From: Epibacterium ulvae
GTDB taxonomy: Bacteria > Pseudomonadota > Alphaproteobacteria > Rhodobacterales > Rhodobacteraceae
Length of the DNA: 64,000 bases
Assembly: GCF_018678075.1 (NCBI RefSeq)
Contig: NZ_JAHHIR010000022.1
Location: forward strand, 124,001 to 188,000
Reading direction: 5' to 3'
Part shown: piece by piece, positions 15,422 to 23,045 of the stretch
Position numbering within the stretch: the first letter of the stretch is position 1
How the letters are laid out: the number at the start of each line of letters is the position of its first letter
Program-made: the position numbers and the translations under genes
The notes under the pieces: generated by a model
Told to the model about the DNA's origin: nothing
Databases searched by the model: none
The model's input: only the letters and a program-made list of their open reading frames with translations

Positions 15422-16213
15422 CTATTTCTTGGAGGTATGGGCCTTCCACAGGTCTGGACGACGTTCCTGGGTGATCTTTTCGCTCATCTCGCGGCGCCAT
15501 TTTTCCACGTTGCCGTGGTGGCCGGACATCAGCACCTCGGGGATCGCGCGGCCCATCCATTCAGCGGGGCGGGTGTATTGTGGGTGTTCCAGAAGGCCAG
15601 AAGAAAAGCTCTCCTCCTCGGTTGAAGCCTGATTGCCTAACACGCCGGGGATCAGGCGCACGGTGGCGTCGATCAGCGCTTGCGCCGCGAGTTCGCCACC
15701 GGTCATGACAAAATCACCCAGCGAGACTTCCATGATGCCGTAGTGTTCCAGCACCCGTTCATCGACGCCCTCAAATCGGCCACACAGAAGGGTGACACCA
15801 TCACAGCGTGCCAGATTCTGCATCATCTGCTGGTCCATGCGCCGCCCCCGTGGCGACAGATAGATCAGCGGCCAGTTGCGGCTGGTGCCGGCCATTGTGT
15901 GTTCAATTGCGTTGCCCAACACATCGGGGCGCAACACCATGCCCGCGCCGCCACCGGCCGGCGTGTCGTCCACGTTGCGGTGTTTGCCAACGCCAAATTC
16001 CCGCAGGTCGGTGGTTTCCAGCTGCCATAAACCTTGTTGCAAAGCTTTGCCCGTCAGGCTTTCGCCCAGCACACCGGGAAAGGCGGTTGGGAACAGGGTC
16101 ATCACCTTGGCCTTCCATACGCCCACAAGGTCCGGCGTGGATGTTATCAGCTCACGCGGTTTCAAGGTCGGGCGAATGGCCTTGCGGCCGTGGGATTTAT
16201 TTGGTGCTGTCAT
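15422..16213 (-). CDS. trmD: tRNA (guanine37-N1)-methyltransferase TrmD
   Basis: SPOUT-class methyltransferase of 263 residues that makes m1G37 in tRNAs with a G at position 36, preventing +1 frameshifts. Recognisable elements are MTLFPTAFPGVLGESLTGKA, then TPAGGGAGMVLRPDV, LLCGRFEGVDERV and the trefoil-knot segment IGDFV-type GDFVMTGGELAAQALIDA. A 36-residue N-terminal extension precedes the usual start of the family. In most bacteria it lies directly after rimM; here an opposite-strand phosphotransferase separates them, so it needs its own promoter in or behind that gene. Confidence 0.95.
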   Translation of the reverse strand: MTAPNKSHGRKAIRPTLKPRELITSTPDLVGVWKAKVMTLFPTAFPGVLGESLTGKALQQGLWQLETTDLREFGVGKHRNVDDTPAGGGAGMVLRPDVLGNAIEHTMAGTSRNWPLIYLSPRGRRMDQQMMQNLARCDGVTLLCGRFEGVDERVLEHYGIMEVSLGDFVMTGGELAAQALIDATVRLIPGVLGNQASTEEESFSSGLLEHPQYTRPAEWMGRAIPEVLMSGHHGNVEKWRREMSEKITQERRPDLWKAHTSKK

Positions 16214-16288
16214 GCAGTGGTGTTTAATTCAAACAGCCGCGCGCGCAACAGAAAGCTTGAGATTTGGCAGCAAGGCACGTCACTGAAG

Positions 16289-17314
16289 ATGCGGAACATA
16301 GGACCAGACAGCCATATGCAACGCGATGAAACACAGGCGCGGACCGAAGACCTGTGGGGAGAAATTGCACCAGATCTCGGAATGTCTGGTTTAGAGCCCC
16401 GTTTCCGCAGAATGAAGGTGAACTGCAGATATGTAGATCGGCGATGTGTTCTGGCGGTTTCTTTGTCCGACGGGACCGAATTGGTGTTACGTGCGGATTT
16501 TGGTGAAGACCGAATTGATCGGTTCCAGAGAATTGTGAACCGGCATCGTGCGGCTGCGCAGGGGGTCGAAGCTGTTGCCGGAGTCAATGTGCCCAAAATC
16601 ATCTGGCAGCACCCAACCCGCCACTTCACCGTGATGGAGTTTGCCCCAGGTGAAACCGCGTTTCGTGAGCTGGATCTGTCTGATTTTGGTTTGGCAAACC
16701 GCGCGCAAACCTTGCAACGGATTGGTCAAGCGGTTGCAGAACTACACGCATGTTCAAAGACGGAACAACGAGAATTCTGGCCGAAACACAACTTGAACCG
16801 GGTTGCAGACCGGGCGCGGGACGTTCGCTCCGGAGTCTTGGGTATGCGAAAAAAAGCGAAGTTTCTGGGCCTATGCGCTTATCTGCATCGCGCAGGACGA
16901 CGCGCGCGTGGTGTTTCTTTTGCGGGGGCGATCGAACATGGCGACTTGCATTTGCGGAACATATTGATGACAGAGGATACGGTCTCTTTCATTGATTTTG
17001 CCAATGATAGAAACGCGGTGCCTCAAAATGATATCGCGAACCTTTGGTTGGCAAATTGCCCTGATCACCTTGCACAAGCGGGGCAGAAAGTCGGATATGG
17101 GCAGGTTGCTGAGGCAGACTGGGCTGCGTTCTTTAGCGGATATGGGCAGGATTTTCGGCTGGACCCGGTTTTTCAATTCTGTTTTGCGATGCGCCTGTTC
17201 AGTGTCTGGCGGAGGCTTCCAGCGCCGATGGATCCGGTCGATCCACGCGCACAGGCAATGATCAATGGCGTCGTCTCAGTTTTCAACTGGCTGATAGAGA
17301 ACGAGCCGGACTGA
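16289..17314 (+). CDS. aminoglycoside phosphotransferase-family (APH/ChoK-like) kinase
   Basis: Protein-kinase-fold small-molecule phosphotransferase, about 341 residues. The catalytic loop is EHGDLHLRNILM (catalytic Asp and Asn) and the metal Asp is in VSFIDFAND. The N-terminal lobe has LRADFGEDRIDRFQ instead of a clear Lys-Glu pair. The substrate is unknown; homologues act on aminoglycosides, choline, homoserine or sugars, and some act on lipopolysaccharide core. It lies opposite to the flanking rimM and trmD genes and abuts rimM stop to stop (TGA then TTA with no gap). Three 60-base stretches counted by eye are 47-53% G+C, against about 65% in one similar stretch of trmD, suggesting acquisition. 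The start could also be the ATG at 16316. Confidence 0.75.
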   Translation: MRNIGPDSHMQRDETQARTEDLWGEIAPDLGMSGLEPRFRRMKVNCRYVDRRCVLAVSLSDGTELVLRADFGEDRIDRFQRIVNRHRAAAQGVEAVAGVNVPKIIWQHPTRHFTVMEFAPGETAFRELDLSDFGLANRAQTLQRIGQAVAELHACSKTEQREFWPKHNLNRVADRARDVRSGVLGMRKKAKFLGLCAYLHRAGRRARGVSFAGAIEHGDLHLRNILMTEDTVSFIDFANDRNAVPQNDIANLWLANCPDHLAQAGQKVGYGQVAEADWAAFFSGYGQDFRLDPVFQFCFAMRLFSVWRRLPAPMDPVDPRAQAMINGVVSVFNWLIENEPD

Positions 17315-18614: not shown

Positions 18615-18989
18615 TTACTCCGCGGTTGCTTCTTCGGGGGCTTCAGCTGCTTCTGCGGCCTTGGCTGCTTTTTCTTCTGCGCGCTCTTGAGCTTTCTTGC
18701 CAGGAACGGCTTTCTCGGGGTTGTTGCGCTCTTTCTTGGCGACAACACCGGCAGCTTCCAGGAAGCGGGCAACACGGTCGGACGGCTGTGCGCCTTGGTC
18801 CATCCAGTATTTTACGCGGTCCAGGTCCAGCTTTACGCGCTCTTCGCTGTCTTTCGGCAGCAGGGGGTTGTAGGTGCCCAGCTTCTCGATGAAGCGGCCG
18901 TCACGTGGCATGCGGCTGTCCGCAGCAACAACACGGTAGAAGGGGCGTTTTTTCGAGCCACCACGGGCCAGACGGATCTTCATTGCCAT
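18615..18989 (-). CDS. rpsP: 30S ribosomal protein S16
   Basis: Ribosomal protein of 124 residues. The first ~80 residues are the S16 core ([20 protein letters not shown], then [20 protein letters not shown] and [12 protein letters not shown]). The tail after about residue 90 is an Ala/Glu/Lys-rich extension seen in alphaproteobacterial S16. It has AGGAG-like bases before the ATG and follows chorismate mutase, from which it is separated by a short hairpin. Strong codon bias fits high expression. Confidence 0.96.
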
Positions 18990-19032: not shown

Positions 19033-19329
19033 TTATTCCTGGTGTTTTTGGTGATGCTGAATGACTTCAGCGATAATGAAGTTGAGAAACTTCTTGGCGA
19101 ATTCGGGGTCCAGGTTGGCCCGTTTTGCCAGATCTTCGAGCCGCGCAATCTGGCGTTCCTCGCGAGAGGGGTCAGAGGGCGGCAGGCCGTGTTTAGCTTT
19201 CAGCTTGCCCACGGCCTGTGTGTGTTTGAACCGCTCACCCAGCGTGTAGACCAAAATGGCGTCCAGGCGGTCGATGCTTTCACGGTGGTCTTTGAGGATA
19301 TCCGCTGCGCGGGTCACATCATTAGTCAA
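19033..19329 (-). CDS. chorismate mutase, AroQ class
   Basis: Small all-helical chorismate mutase of 98 residues that converts chorismate to prephenate for Phe and Tyr synthesis. Helix 1 contains RESIDRLDAILVYTLGERFK, followed by AVGKLKAKHGLPPSDPSREE, which holds the Arg and Lys active-site positions of the AroQ fold, and the C-terminal helix FAKKFLNFIIAEVIQHH. The start is a TTG at 19329 with AAGGA 7 bases ahead; a GTG at 19317 is a fallback. The start overlaps the upstream GNAT remnant's stop by 8 bases, so its translation probably depends on ribosomes finishing that gene. Confidence 0.87.
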   Translation of the reverse strand: MTNDVTRAADILKDHRESIDRLDAILVYTLGERFKHTQAVGKLKAKHGLPPSDPSREERQIARLEDLAKRANLDPEFAKKFLNFIIAEVIQHHQKHQE

Positions 19330-19678
19330 GGGCCCATCCTTTTGGCTTGAACAGCGGGTCAGCGTAATGGCTGATCTCCATTTCGATCCCATGTGCCAGC
19401 TGGCTGTCGGCCAGATCGGCGGGGCTGGGGTGACGGTAGACGGCATCATTGCAATCAACTGTTGCGGCTGCGTGATCTTTGGCGGCACCCAGATGTTCCA
19501 CAAGGCGGATCGAATCCAGGTTCTTGGGGTCAATGTAGCTGACCGTCGTTGCCCAACCTAGGGTTTTGTAAAAGTAATCCCGTGTCGCATTGGTTGCTAC
19601 AGGATCCGGAGCGGCTTCGGTGGTTGAGCCGCGCAAGGTCAGGCGCTGGGTTTCGAGGGTTGAGATCGCGGTTGTCAT
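19322..19678 (-). pseudogene. internally deleted GNAT acetyltransferase (fourth of four tandem copies)
   Basis: 118 residues. The first ~15 residues (STLETQRLTLRG) match the N terminus of the neighbouring GNAT genes. A later stretch (ATRDYFYKTLGWATTVSYID, then SIRLVEHLGA and AVYRHPSP) matches their C-terminal third. Between them about 80 residues are missing, including the acetyl-CoA binding strand and the Gly-x-Gly-x-Ala loop, so it should not bind acetyl-CoA. The frame is intact through the deletion and it keeps 4-base and 8-base overlaps with its neighbours. It also has a C-terminal extension of about 25 residues with no match in the other copies. It may survive as a translational coupling leader for chorismate mutase. 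Confidence 0.75.
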
Positions 19679-20217
19679 GCGGCGCCTCCCTCAGGCGTGT
19701 TTTCCAACGGGTGACGCCAGATCTGGCAGGGTTTGCCAAAAAACACGCGGTCGCATTCATGGGTTGCGCCAAGGCGTTCGGCCAAGGCAGCAGAGCGGGC
19801 GTTGTGGGGACGGATGTAGGAAATCACCCCGTCCAATTTATACTCCTGCGCTCCAAAGGCTCGTGCGGCGCGGGCCGCCTCAAAAGCATATCCTTTGCCC
19901 TCGGCTGTGGCATAGACATGCCAGCCCAGTTCTGGCTCGTCCCAGCCCTCGTGATAGATGAAACCCACACGTCCCAGTGGGGCGTCGGTTTTCTTTTCCG
20001 CAACCAGCCACATGCCATAACCGCGCATCATCCAATGGCCCAGGCTGCTGCAAAAGCCGCGCCAGGCCTCACTCCGGTTCTGTGGCCCGCCAACAAATGC
20101 GGCCCGGTCCGATGCCATGAACTCCGCATGTGCCTCGAAATCCTTTTCGCGCGGGGCGCGCAGGACCAGACGTTGGGTTTCCAGTTCCGGGATCGGCAGG
20201 GTGAAAAACGCGCTCAT
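19675..20217 (-). CDS. GNAT-family N-acetyltransferase (tandem copy 3)
   Basis: RimJ/RimL-type acetyltransferase of 180 residues. It begins IPELETQRLVLRAPREKDFE, has the strand-helix acetyl-CoA site GWHVYATAEGKGYAFEAARA, and ends HNARSAALAERLGATHE. Closest relatives in the window are its two neighbours, implying local duplication. It overlaps both neighbours by 4 bases (ATGA). The substrate is unknown: the RimJ/RimL subgroup acetylates protein N termini or amino compounds. Position between ffh and rpsP hints at a link to translation but proves nothing. Confidence 0.85.
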   Translation of the reverse strand: MSAFFTLPIPELETQRLVLRAPREKDFEAHAEFMASDRAAFVGGPQNRSEAWRGFCSSLGHWMMRGYGMWLVAEKKTDAPLGRVGFIYHEGWDEPELGWHVYATAEGKGYAFEAARAARAFGAQEYKLDGVISYIRPHNARSAALAERLGATHECDRVFFGKPCQIWRHPLENTPEGGAA

Positions 20218-20762
20218 GCGGCACCTCCTGCGATCAAACTGTCCCGGCTCGGATGGCGATAGATCAAGGCGGGTTTGCCCGAAGGTGTGGACCAGTCGTC
20301 CTGCTCAAGCGTCGCGCCAAGGCGTTCGGCCAACCGGATAGACCGTGTGTTTTGCGGTGCGATCACACTGATAAGCGGGTCCCAGCCAAGGGTGTTATAG
20401 GCATAGTCGCGTGCGGCGCTTGCGGCGTTGAATGCAATGCCCTTGCCCTCAAACCCTGCAAAGGCACGCCAGCCAAGCTCGACCTGCAGCCAGCCTTCGG
20501 GGTTCCAGAACCCAGTTTGCCCTGCGATGCGTCGGCTTGCCTTGTCGACCACAGTAAACATGCCATAGCCGCGCAGCACCCAATGCCCGGTCTCGCAGGC
20601 AAAGCTGCGCCAAGCGGCTGGGTGATCCAGCGGGCCCCCGGTCATATGGCTGCGGTCACTGTTCATAAAATCGGCGTAAGCGTCGAAATCGTTGGCCTCG
20701 GGCGCGCGCAGCAGCAGCGTGTCGGTTTCGATCACCGGATATGAAAGCTGGGAGAGGCTCAT
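20214..20762 (-). CDS. GNAT-family N-acetyltransferase (tandem copy 2)
   Basis: 182 residues of the same subfamily as its neighbours. It begins YPVIETDTLLLRAPEANDFD. The acetyl-CoA site ELGWRAFAGFEGKGIAFNAA is slightly altered where the other copies have Tyr-Ala-Phe/Tyr-Glu-Ala: here it is Ile-Ala-Phe-Asn-Ala, so the glutamate is Asn. The C-terminal part reads APQNTRSIRLAERLGATLEQ. The 4-base overlaps on both sides show one transcript and coupled translation. The altered loop suggests the copies have diverged in substrate or activity. Confidence 0.85.
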   Translation of the reverse strand: MSLSQLSYPVIETDTLLLRAPEANDFDAYADFMNSDRSHMTGGPLDHPAAWRSFACETGHWVLRGYGMFTVVDKASRRIAGQTGFWNPEGWLQVELGWRAFAGFEGKGIAFNAASAARDYAYNTLGWDPLISVIAPQNTRSIRLAERLGATLEQDDWSTPSGKPALIYRHPSRDSLIAGGAA

Positions 20763-21289
20763 GCGTAGGCCTCCACCGAACCGTCGGTCTGGGGAATATG
20801 GCGATAGACCAGATCTTCGGGGTCTTCGCCGTGTTCCTTGGTGTCCAAAACTCCACCAAGGCGTTTGGCCAGGGCGATAGAACGCGCATTTTGGGGATCG
20901 ATGTAGGAGACCAGCGTTTGCAGGCCACGGGTTTCAAAGCCCCAGTCGCGTGCGGCGGATGCGGCCTCATAGGCGTAGCCTTGGCCTTCGTAGGCGGGGA
21001 ATACAATCCAGCCCAGTTCAACCTCGGGAAAGCGCGGTGGTTTGTTGATGCCGACCTGACCGATCAGCGTGTCGGTTTCGCGCAGCTCAACCGCCCAGGA
21101 GCCATAGCCCAGCCATTCCCAGCTGATGGTCTCTGCCGCGATCCAGCGCCACAGTTCATCATGGGAAATCGGCCCACCCATATAGCGTGCCCAATCGCTG
21201 GCAAACAGATCCACCATCGGCGTGATATCCTCACACCGGTGATGGCGCAGTCGCAGGCGCTGGGTTTCTATGGTGGGCGCTTGGGTCAC
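20759..21289 (-). CDS. GNAT-family N-acetyltransferase (tandem copy 1)
   Basis: 176 residues. It begins TIETQRLRLRHHRCEDITPM, has the acetyl-CoA site ELGWIVFPAYEGQGYAYEAA and ends with the family motif DPQNARSIALAKRLGGVLD. The start is a GTG placed directly after the ffh TAA with no intervening base, so it is translated by ribosomes leaving ffh. It is the least similar to the others at its C terminus (ends DGSVEAYA). It starts a run of four overlapping GNAT genes. Confidence 0.85.
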   Translation of the reverse strand: MTQAPTIETQRLRLRHHRCEDITPMVDLFASDWARYMGGPISHDELWRWIAAETISWEWLGYGSWAVELRETDTLIGQVGINKPPRFPEVELGWIVFPAYEGQGYAYEAASAARDWGFETRGLQTLVSYIDPQNARSIALAKRLGGVLDTKEHGEDPEDLVYRHIPQTDGSVEAYA

Positions 21290-22813
21290 TTATTTTTTCT
21301 TCCCAAATCCGGACAGACCGCCGGGCAGGCCCATACCGCCGCCAAGACCGGGCAGACCGCCGGGCAGGCCGCCTTTGCCACCGATCGCTTTGGCAGCTGC
21401 TTCCAGCGCTTTGGGGTCCATTTGCGAGGGGTCCATGCCAGCCATATCGGGCATGCCACCTTTGCCGCCCAGCATGCCTTTCATGGCCTGCTTCAGCATC
21501 TTGCCTTTGCCCATTTTGGACATTTTCTTCATCACGTCGGACATCTGGCGATGCATCTTCAACAGCTTGTTCAGCTCTGAGACTTCCATGCCGGCACCGG
21601 CCGCGATGCGTTTCTTGCGGCTGGCTTGCAGCAACGCGGGATTGGCGCGCTCTTTCTTGGTCATAGATTGCACAAGGGCGATCTGGCGTTTGATGACTTT
21701 GTCGTCCATGCCGGATTCTTCGACCTGTTTGGCCATTTTACCCATGCCTGGCATCATCTGCATCATGCCCTGCATGCCGCCCATCTGCTGCATCTGTTCA
21801 AGCTGCATGCGCAGGTCGTTCATATTGAACTGACCCTTCATCATGCGCTTCATCATCTTTTCGGCTTTTTCAGCCTCGATGGTTTCCTGGGCCTTTTCAA
21901 CCAAGGCAACAATGTCGCCCATGCCGAGGATCCGGCCGGCGATCCGGTCAGGCTCGAAGGTTTCAATGGCGTCCATCTTCTCGCCCAGACCGACAAAGCG
22001 GATCGGCTTGCCGGTGACCGCGCGCATCGACAGCGCCGCACCACCGCGCCCGTCGCCGTCCATCCGGGTGAGGACCACGCCCGAGATGCCAACCTTGGCG
22101 TCGAACTCTTCGGCGACCTCAACCGCGACCTGACCGGTCAGCCCATCGACCACCAGCAGGGTCTCGCGGGGTTCAACCGCGTTGCGGACCTGTTCGACCT
22201 CATCCATCAGGACTTCGTCGATGTGCAAACGGCCGGCCGTGTCGAGCATATAGACGTCGTAACCGCCCAGCATCGCCTGTTGTTTGGCGCGTTTGGCGAT
22301 GTCGACGGGTTTTTGTCCCTGAACGATTGGCAGCGTATCAACGCCGACTTGTTTGCCGAGAACCGCCAGCTGGTCCATCGCTGCCGGGCGATAGATGTCG
22401 AGGGAGGCCATCAAGACCTTTTTGCCCTCTTTCTCTTTCAGACGTTTGGCCAGCTTACCGGTGGTGGTCGTCTTACCAGAACCTTGCAGACCAACCATCA
22501 GGATCGGCGCAGGCGGGTTGTCGATTTTCAGAACGCCGGGATCAACGTCACCATGCAGGGTGTCGACCAGCGCGTCGTGCACGATCTTGACGACCTGTTG
22601 GCCGGGGGTGACGGATTTGGTCACAGCCTGGCCAGTGGCCTGGTCCTGCACCTTTTTGATAAATTCGCGCGCAACCGGCAGCGAGACGTCGGCTTCCAAG
22701 AGCGCCACGCGCACTTCGCGCAATGCGGTTTTGACGTCTTCCTCGGACAGGGCGCCTTGCTTGGTCAGCCGGTCGAAGACGCCGGATAGGCGTTCGGATA
22801 GATTTTCAAACAT
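21290..22813 (-). CDS. ffh: signal recognition particle protein Ffh
   Basis: SRP54 GTPase of 507 residues that targets ribosome-nascent chain complexes to FtsY and the Sec translocon. N domain, then G domain with GLQGSGKTTTTGKLAKRLK (G1), the LDTAGR box (G3) and GLGEKMDAIETFEPDRIAGR at its end. The Met-rich M domain (repeated Met-Gly-Gly and Met-Gln-Gln runs near residues 320-345, then SRKKRIAAGAGMEVSELNKL) binds SRP RNA and signal peptides. It ends in a Gly-rich tail with Lys-Lys-Lys. It is the first gene of the operon that leads to rpsP and rimM. Confidence 0.96.
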   Translation of the reverse strand: MFENLSERLSGVFDRLTKQGALSEEDVKTALREVRVALLEADVSLPVAREFIKKVQDQATGQAVTKSVTPGQQVVKIVHDALVDTLHGDVDPGVLKIDNPPAPILMVGLQGSGKTTTTGKLAKRLKEKEGKKVLMASLDIYRPAAMDQLAVLGKQVGVDTLPIVQGQKPVDIAKRAKQQAMLGGYDVYMLDTAGRLHIDEVLMDEVEQVRNAVEPRETLLVVDGLTGQVAVEVAEEFDAKVGISGVVLTRMDGDGRGGAALSMRAVTGKPIRFVGLGEKMDAIETFEPDRIAGRILGMGDIVALVEKAQETIEAEKAEKMMKRMMKGQFNMNDLRMQLEQMQQMGGMQGMMQMMPGMGKMAKQVEESGMDDKVIKRQIALVQSMTKKERANPALLQASRKKRIAAGAGMEVSELNKLLKMHRQMSDVMKKMSKMGKGKMLKQAMKGMLGGKGGMPDMAGMDPSQMDPKALEAAAKAIGGKGGLPGGLPGLGGGMGLPGGLSGFGKKK

Positions 22814-22894: not shown

Positions 22895-23045
22895 TGTCGC
22901 CACAACGTAAGGGCGATCCATGCACAAGCGCCCCCACGGGCGTAACACGCTGGTGGAGGGCGATCCCTGGCAAAGGCCGGGGACCGGAAGACTCAGAGAC
23001 TTCCGGATGGTTGACCGGGCGATACGCGCTTTGCCCTAGAGAGTC
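22895..23045. other. structured intergenic region upstream of ffh, possible RNA element
   Basis: The 438-base gap between ffh and the next gene codes for nothing convincing. Inside it, CCGGAAG (22984-22990) and CTTCCGG (23000-23006) form a perfect 7-base stem with a 9-base loop. The word GGGCGAT occurs three times (22911, 22958, 23017), and AAGGGC near 22910 can pair with GCCCT near 23034 to enclose the whole. It lacks the GGAAG-GAAGCAG core expected of SRP RNA. It could be an ffh 5' leader or a small RNA; the rest of the gap to 23251 shows nothing. Confidence 0.3.

Follow-up and report, generated by a model that had tools for sequence, protein, structure and literature searches.

In most sampled genomes of the Rhodobacteraceae, a large and chiefly marine bacterial family, a tandem array of GNAT acetyltransferase genes lies between ffh, the gene for the signal recognition particle (SRP) GTPase, and a chorismate mutase (CM) gene close to rpsP. 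We analysed this array in a 64,000-nucleotide stretch of Epibacterium ulvae DNA (positions 124,001-188,000 of the forward strand of contig NZ_JAHHIR010000022.1, GCF_018678075.1; hereafter the window) and in related genomes, and on balance we consider it probable that it is an old array of N-acetyltransferases that act on amines of small molecules or peptides and are translated together with ffh. Genomes are labelled G (G000 for the window genome; G001, G003, G015 and others for its congeners) and individual loci are labelled L.

The sequence-only reading that drew attention to this locus described four overlapping GNAT genes on the minus strand between ffh and CM/rpsP, and the layout is as it described: four open reading frames (ORFs) are present at that place (Table 1), the first sits directly on the ffh stop with a gap of 0 nt between the TAA of ffh and the GTG of copy 1, and the overlaps between copies 1 and 2, 2 and 3, and 3 and 4 are 4 nt each, reading ATGA. 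Copies 1-3 are complete and matched the Pfam domain Acetyltransf_3 (PF13302) at 113.8, 93.5 and 103.1 bits respectively against a cut-off of 25.4, with E values of 1e-26 to 1e-32, far beyond chance. The count of four GNAT genes has to be reduced to these three, as copy 4 lacks 82 codons and covers only positions 100-137 of the profile, at 22.2 bits and so below the cut-off. That the genes are paralogues was borne out, with 58-nt DNA families repeating at a spacing of 539-548 nt across copies 1-3, which also fall in one clade. The shared motifs are related but looser than the TxETQRL start and DPQNARS-type ending that had been proposed, with copy 2 starting IETDTL and copies 1-4 ending DPQNARS, APQNTRS, RPHNARS and DPKNLDS.

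The distribution of the array was determined in 17 congeners, including the window genome, and 140 genomes of other genera, taken from 154 other genomes with an ffh match (an eighteenth congener, G009, had no ffh match). With 5 of the 157 ffh stretches dropped, as CM was out of reach, 152 loci were counted, a full copy being a model match that starts at or before position 30 and ends at or after position 130; four partial copies, including copy 4 of the window, were excluded from the counts. At least one full copy was found between ffh and CM in 137 of the 152 Rhodobacteraceae loci (15/17 congeners, 122/135 others), and all 359 full copies were on the ffh strand, at 1-11 per occupied locus: there were none in 15 loci, one in 31, two in 45, three in 36, four in 11, five in 8, six in 2, seven in 2, nine in L077 and eleven in L142. 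Among other alphaproteobacterial families (40 of 90 matching genomes, 38 with both ffh and rpsP detected), a GNAT of the array family lay between ffh and rpsP in 0 of the 38 loci, and CM itself lay there in just one (L197). Judged from these gene neighbourhoods, the array is a trait of the Rhodobacteraceae. Three genomes of other families (G178:C40, G179:C8 and G241:C1) carry a related GNAT gene approximately 13-21 kb from ffh, perhaps a trace of an older neighbourhood.

A FastTree phylogeny of the 359 copies gave ten named subfamilies, A-J, which label 344 copies and leave 15 unlabelled, and most arrays hold no more than one member of each. Subfamily order is kept between arrays, agreeing in 346 of 399 pair comparisons (mean 249 and maximum 275 in 500 shuffles) and, when subfamily A was left out, in 212 of 262 (shuffled maximum 191); the order of B and C is unfixed (10 against 9). 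The subfamily A clade (n=58) is the last in its own array in 56 cases. Within arrays the median identity is 40% (462 pairs), reaching at least 60% in only 4 of the 462 pairs. A careful 103-row tree placed each window copy beside orthologues of other genera and put copy 3 and, on a long branch, copy 2 in subfamily D, and in a tree of 82 of the 359 array copies plus 30 off-array homologues the array clade received support of 100/98, with window copies 1-3 inside. The sequence-only reading is supported in that the genes are paralogous GNATs, encoded together with ffh, and that relatives keep them at this locus (137/152). Presence of the subfamilies is patchy: on a neighbour-gene tree of 148 loci, subfamily A needed 20 changes (shuffled mean 45) and B needed 33 (shuffled 45), and the presence of E, G, H, I and J was close to that of shuffled labels; five basal or stray members were left out of subfamily A in these and in the identity counts. 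As order is conserved, presence is patchy and identity within arrays is low, the array is, as far as the trees can tell, the product of old birth-and-death evolution with few recent duplications and no fresh expansion. The description of the family as expanding is thus not supported, since arrays contain so few close pairs, the window copies group with orthologues of other genera (except that copies 2 and 3 share a subfamily) and copies have been both gained and lost within the genus.

We also examined whether the genes could be mosaics or of foreign origin. Gene halves disagreed in subfamily in 44 of 344 copies, compared to 21 of 344 for odd and even columns; most of the disagreements fell in E, G, H and I, which are poorly resolved, and no clear domain swapping was seen. 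Plasmid origin was rejected, as a DNA search gave no match and a protein search gave 134 records that were all below 60% identity, as was phage origin, for which only three weak matches (31-34%) were found. The GC content of the copies, 57-61% compared to 58% for the window, is unremarkable.

The full copies appear to retain a common catalytic machinery. In the numbering of the G015 subfamily A protein, an equivalent of Glu92 is present in 359 of 359 array copies, of Asn135 in 354 and of Ser138 in 338, with all three in 333; window copies 1-3 have the equivalents of both E92 and S138. Glu92 and Ser138 align with E102 and S148 of PA3944 from Pseudomonas aeruginosa, a Ser/Glu GNAT that acts on polymyxin B and NANMO and in which S148 was shown to be critical for activity (PMC8072286). 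Positions such as 36, 38, 65, 69, 82, 83, 130, 132 and 157-160 show little or no variation within subfamily A and vary in the other subfamilies; they are predicted to line the acceptor site. The Glu-to-Asn exchange reported for copy 2 is real, that copy having the sole N at this position among 359 aligned copies, but it lies just after the acetyl-CoA loop and not inside it. Structure models were confident (predicted local distance difference test, pLDDT, 91.3 and 93.4), and the closest solved folds were 2fsr (Z 26.9 and 28.1), PA3944, 3juw and bleomycin acetyltransferase, followed by 2fck and others; RimL came twelfth (Z 17.5 and 18.7). Curated models of known enzymes fell far short of their cut-offs: the RimJ (S5-alanine) model NF008072 gave 12.6 bits for copy 1 and 28.1 for copy 3 against 190, with no listed match for copies 2 and 4; the SpeG model NF011709 gave 26.7 for copy 1 and 18.1 for copy 2 against 218; and the BlmB model NF000483 gave 22.2 for copy 1 and 26.3 for copy 3 against 625. 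The label RimJ/RimL-like that the copies had been given is not supported by these scores or by the folds, among which 2fsr, PA3944 and bleomycin acetyltransferase are closer than RimL. The best RimI match in the window genome, at 82.1 bits just under the cut-off of 86.4, is outside the array.

Codon comparison with G015 gave dN/dS values of 0.151, 0.105 and 0.085 for copies 1, 2 and 3, which by this measure are under purifying selection. Between genera, the mean identity of subfamily A is 77%, close to that of CM (82.5%) and RpsP (82.3%), compared to 42-60% for subfamilies B-J, and it was above that of other subfamilies in 857 of 859 paired comparisons. With this near-housekeeping conservation, subfamily A has the look of an enzyme whose substrate is fixed, while the other subfamilies resemble a set that is diversifying. 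Within the genus, subfamily A is intact in 13 of 17 congeners, broken in the window genome and absent from G014, G016 and G017, and its loss or breakage in 4 of 17 suggests that it is dispensable. Named loci, chosen as the best 80 of 402 by subfamily A match and so no test of frequency, include Tritonibacter, Ruegeria, Leisingera, Phaeobacter and others; 79 of the 80 held both ffh and CM, with 1-6 copies by script count, some of them partial. Ruegeria pomeroyi SZCCDBG043 (L267) has four. Two of these subfamily A loci (L253 and L294) come from records titled Nocardioides marinus and Flavobacteriia bacterium, which are probably mislabelled or contaminated.

Of 223 copy-to-copy junctions in the family set, 178 are 4-nt overlaps and 32 are 1-nt overlaps. 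The start picker used prefers starts close to the preceding stop, which counts against this tally, but ATGA ends 169 of the 223 internal copies, so that the gene ends back the overlaps independently of start picking. Start/stop overlaps of 4 nt chain the copies behind ffh, so termination-reinitiation on the ffh message is very probably how they are translated. A scan for internal promoters gave 0 sigma-70-like sites compared to a shuffle mean of 1.2, and is uninformative for this lineage.

Copy 4 is a deletion remnant of subfamily A, the best-conserved member of the array, an assignment that is made from DNA alignment with subfamily A genes and not from tree placement. In that alignment 82 codons are missing from it, in frame, that the intact 200-aa genes of G015, G001 and G003 retain, and GCAAC flanks the missing stretch at both ends in the intact G015 gene. 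The absent codons, 28-109 of the intact gene, include the equivalents of the catalytic residue Glu92 and of Gly103, Gly105 and Ala107 in the acetyl-CoA loop, and the subfamily A gene of the window genome, hollowed out in this way, should be inactive. Its first 27 codons have a dN of 0.317 relative to G015, compared to 0.07-0.08 among the intact genes, indicating relaxed constraint. Divergence from G015 falls at the copy 4 junction: dS is 0.75-1.17 in copies 1-3 and 0.39 in ffh, but approximately 0.1 in both CM and the C-terminal core of copy 4, the tail having 0.21. One recombination event that both imported the segment and made the deletion would explain this drop. It is conceivable, if quite improbable, that the truncated protein has kept a non-catalytic activity, exerted by the 27-residue C-terminal tail that is conserved in subfamily A. 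This tail has 3 synonymous and 0 nonsynonymous changes between G000 and G015 where the first 27 codons have approximately 15 nonsynonymous ones, it is well conserved across the subfamily, and a search of the family ORF set gave 56 matches, every one in a GNAT ORF and none of them a stand-alone tail. These change counts are small, however, the nearness of the C-terminal core and CM to G015 means that the segment may be a recent import, and the tail end deviates in 2 of 20 aligned subfamily A proteins (L139 and L062).

Taken together, a single origin between ffh and CM within the Rhodobacteraceae is most likely for the array, its later history being one of duplication, divergence, frequent loss and the occasional appearance of members elsewhere in the genome. 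Full copies retain the PA3944/2fsr-type machinery of a Glu on strand beta-4 and a Ser on the next helix, and as acceptor-side residues differ, each subfamily probably acetylates a different amine, subfamily A one fixed substrate and the other, diverged subfamilies others. The conserved residues, the fold neighbours and the low scores of the RimJ, SpeG and BlmB models make the acetylation of small-molecule or peptide amines the likeliest activity, and its most likely role would be constitutive N-acetylation in detoxification or metabolite repair, of which we prefer the detoxification of amino compounds. Several observations weigh against this. All 15 loci without any copy show that no array member is generally essential, and Ser138 is replaced in 21 of 359 copies. 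The fold neighbours also include RimL, RimJ and SpeG, with lower Z, and, near bleomycin acetyltransferase at Z 18.8-20.2, 2fck, whose title names a putative ribosomal-protein-serine acetyltransferase; the nearest solved relative, 2fsr, is uncharacterised, and it is from fold neighbours of the modelled structures that detoxification is suggested. The dN/dS values of copies 1 and 3 are higher when taken against G001 and G003 (0.126-0.373), and subfamily A, being conserved at a housekeeping level, is more in keeping with an endogenous substrate than with xenobiotics. That each subfamily has one substrate is itself something we infer, and support is low for some of the subfamilies (0.0 for I and 0.47 for G), C and I being scattered in the 112-sequence tree. 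Finally, 2 of 13 off-locus GNATs from eight congeners fell within the array clade (L346 of G011 and L357 of G006; SH-aLRT 97) and 11 outside it in a quick tree from which three long-branched rows of the clade tree had been removed. Three off-array rows were also inside the array clade of the 112-sequence tree, two from G016, whose ffh-CM interval is empty and whose array-type GNATs are elsewhere in its genome (L049 and L050), and one from another family. Strict confinement of the family to the ffh-CM locus is ruled out by such members; on the tree placements most, not all, of the family sits there.

Other explanations account for parts of these data. The ffh-CM interval could be an exchangeable locus for chemical protection, at which sets of acetyltransferases are swapped between species by homologous recombination with the subfamily register kept; conserved flanks (ffh on one side, CM-rpsP on the other) would permit the swapping of co-translated sets with different acceptor sites. 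This would explain the conserved order, the patchy content and the sudden drop in G000-G015 divergence at the junction in copy 4, and we consider it possible, though on the whole unlikely. We give similarly limited credence to a permissive site behind ffh that tolerates in-frame duplicates, with copies coming and going without a shared array function. The patchy presence of the subfamilies, two congeners without a copy between ffh and CM and the decay of copy 4 in the window genome all fit such a ratchet, but purifying selection on copies 1-3, an order kept over very long times, conserved catalytic residues and the housekeeping-like conservation of subfamily A do not. It is rather unlikely that the copies are RimJ/RimL-type enzymes acetylating ribosomal or nascent proteins, which would explain a place in an SRP/ribosome operon between ffh and rpsP. 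Such a function, raised by the sequence-only reading, is not supported, location being what speaks for it in this analysis; as to the kind of enzyme, the copies share the domain family Acetyltransf_3, and RimL, RimJ and 2fck are among the fold matches, set against the low NF008072 scores and the lower Z of RimL relative to 2fsr. A number varying from 0 to 11 copies, together with the fast divergence of most subfamilies, is also unlike an enzyme with a conserved ribosomal target, and there are five more Acetyltransf_3 matches elsewhere in the window genome.

Recent amplification for the dosage of one enzyme is very improbable. There are a few close pairs (80% in L077, 70% and 66% in L142 and 66% in L171) among arrays in which identity is otherwise low, and it is disfavoured by the tree, in which window copies cluster with those of other genera, and by acceptor-side residues that vary by subfamily. 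An equally slight chance is given to GNAT toxins that form a toxin-antitoxin or phage-defence module. Operons that pair GNATs with DNA-binding proteins do exist, although the authors who described them favoured antibiotic resistance over a toxin role (PMC2701414); no PADLOC match up to E 0.1 was found for the four copies, array gaps of more than 150 nt in the family set held NIPSNAP-like, YeeE-like or short unassigned ORFs with no antitoxin-type gene recognised by eye, and the chromosomal site is stable across the family. The reading of the array as amine N-acetyltransferases is the one we retain.

Table 1. Window coordinates of the array, its parts and its flanking genes.
Feature	Position	Strand	Basis
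ffh, SRP GTPase, upstream anchor of the array	21290..22813	-	ORF; query for searches of relatives
Copy 1, 176 aa, subfamily B, GTG start right after ffh stop	20759..21289	-	Pfam, trees
Copy 2, 182 aa, subfamily D (lineage placement weaker)	20214..20762	-	Pfam, trees
Copy 3, 180 aa, subfamily D	19675..20217	-	Pfam, trees
Copy 4, 118 aa, remnant of terminal subfamily A gene, predicted non-catalytic	19322..19678	-	DNA alignment
Deletion junction GCAAC in copy 4	19593..19597	-	Alignment with intact G015 gene
C-terminal tail of subfamily A, 27 codons, intact in remnant	19325..19405	-	Alignment, codon comparison
Chorismate mutase (CM_2); alternative starts TTG (19329, overlap with copy 4) and GTG (19317)	19033..19329	-	Pfam
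rpsP, downstream anchor of the locus	18615..18989	-	ORF; query for searches of relatives

Some arrays hold other genes. L142, the largest, has 11 full copies and one partial copy with an inserted ORF that is YeeE-like by eye, and ORFs judged by eye to resemble it stand behind ffh in L089 and L190. Seven loci of the family set, and 11 of the 80 named ones, have a small NIPSNAP-family gene (PF07978, E 5e-17; e.g. L279:5112-5453) within the array or directly behind ffh. In L239, from Pseudophaeobacter leonis, the first array copy is seemingly split over two frames and probably broken. In the window, the Rfam ffh sRNA motif RF01793 was found just 5' of ffh (22923-22974, minus strand; 64.1 bits), and an APH-type phosphotransferase gene lies beside rimM (16163-17314, plus strand), in a region (16.3-17.3 kb) where DNA identity to G015 is 63-75%, below that of its neighbours.

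The one to eleven acetyltransferases that extend the operon behind ffh, itself among the most conserved of cellular genes, make a large, ordered and locus-centred gene family, and a natural series for relating variation at the acceptor site to substrate, in which it should be possible to find the substrate of the strongly conserved subfamily A. In annotation, the name 'ribosomal-protein acetyltransferase' is unlikely to be correct for the array genes, and the last array ORF of the window genome should be read as a remnant. The kind of enzyme is already known; an ordered GNAT array coupled to ffh was not found described in open PubMed Central papers.

Among known systems, the DR0678-DR0684 cluster of Deinococcus radiodurans is likewise made up mostly of GNAT-related genes (PMC2701414), in a lineage other than that of the Rhodobacteraceae array. 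RimL and RimJ share the Acetyltransf_3-type GNAT fold, with lower Z and with array copies scoring below the curated RimJ model. The bleomycin N-acetyltransferase BmNat/BlmB is closer in fold (Z 19.8-20.3), although the copies do not reach the BlmB cut-off and BmNat chains are longer than array copies. PA3944 is closer again, with a fold Z of 22-23 and the Glu102/Ser148 pair by alignment, at 27-29% identity to array copies in the fold alignments. The closest relative is 2fsr, an Agrobacterium tumefaciens acetyltransferase, which is both the best sequence match (E 3e-44) and the best match in fold, copy 1 giving Z 28.1 with 164 residues at 1.2 Å.

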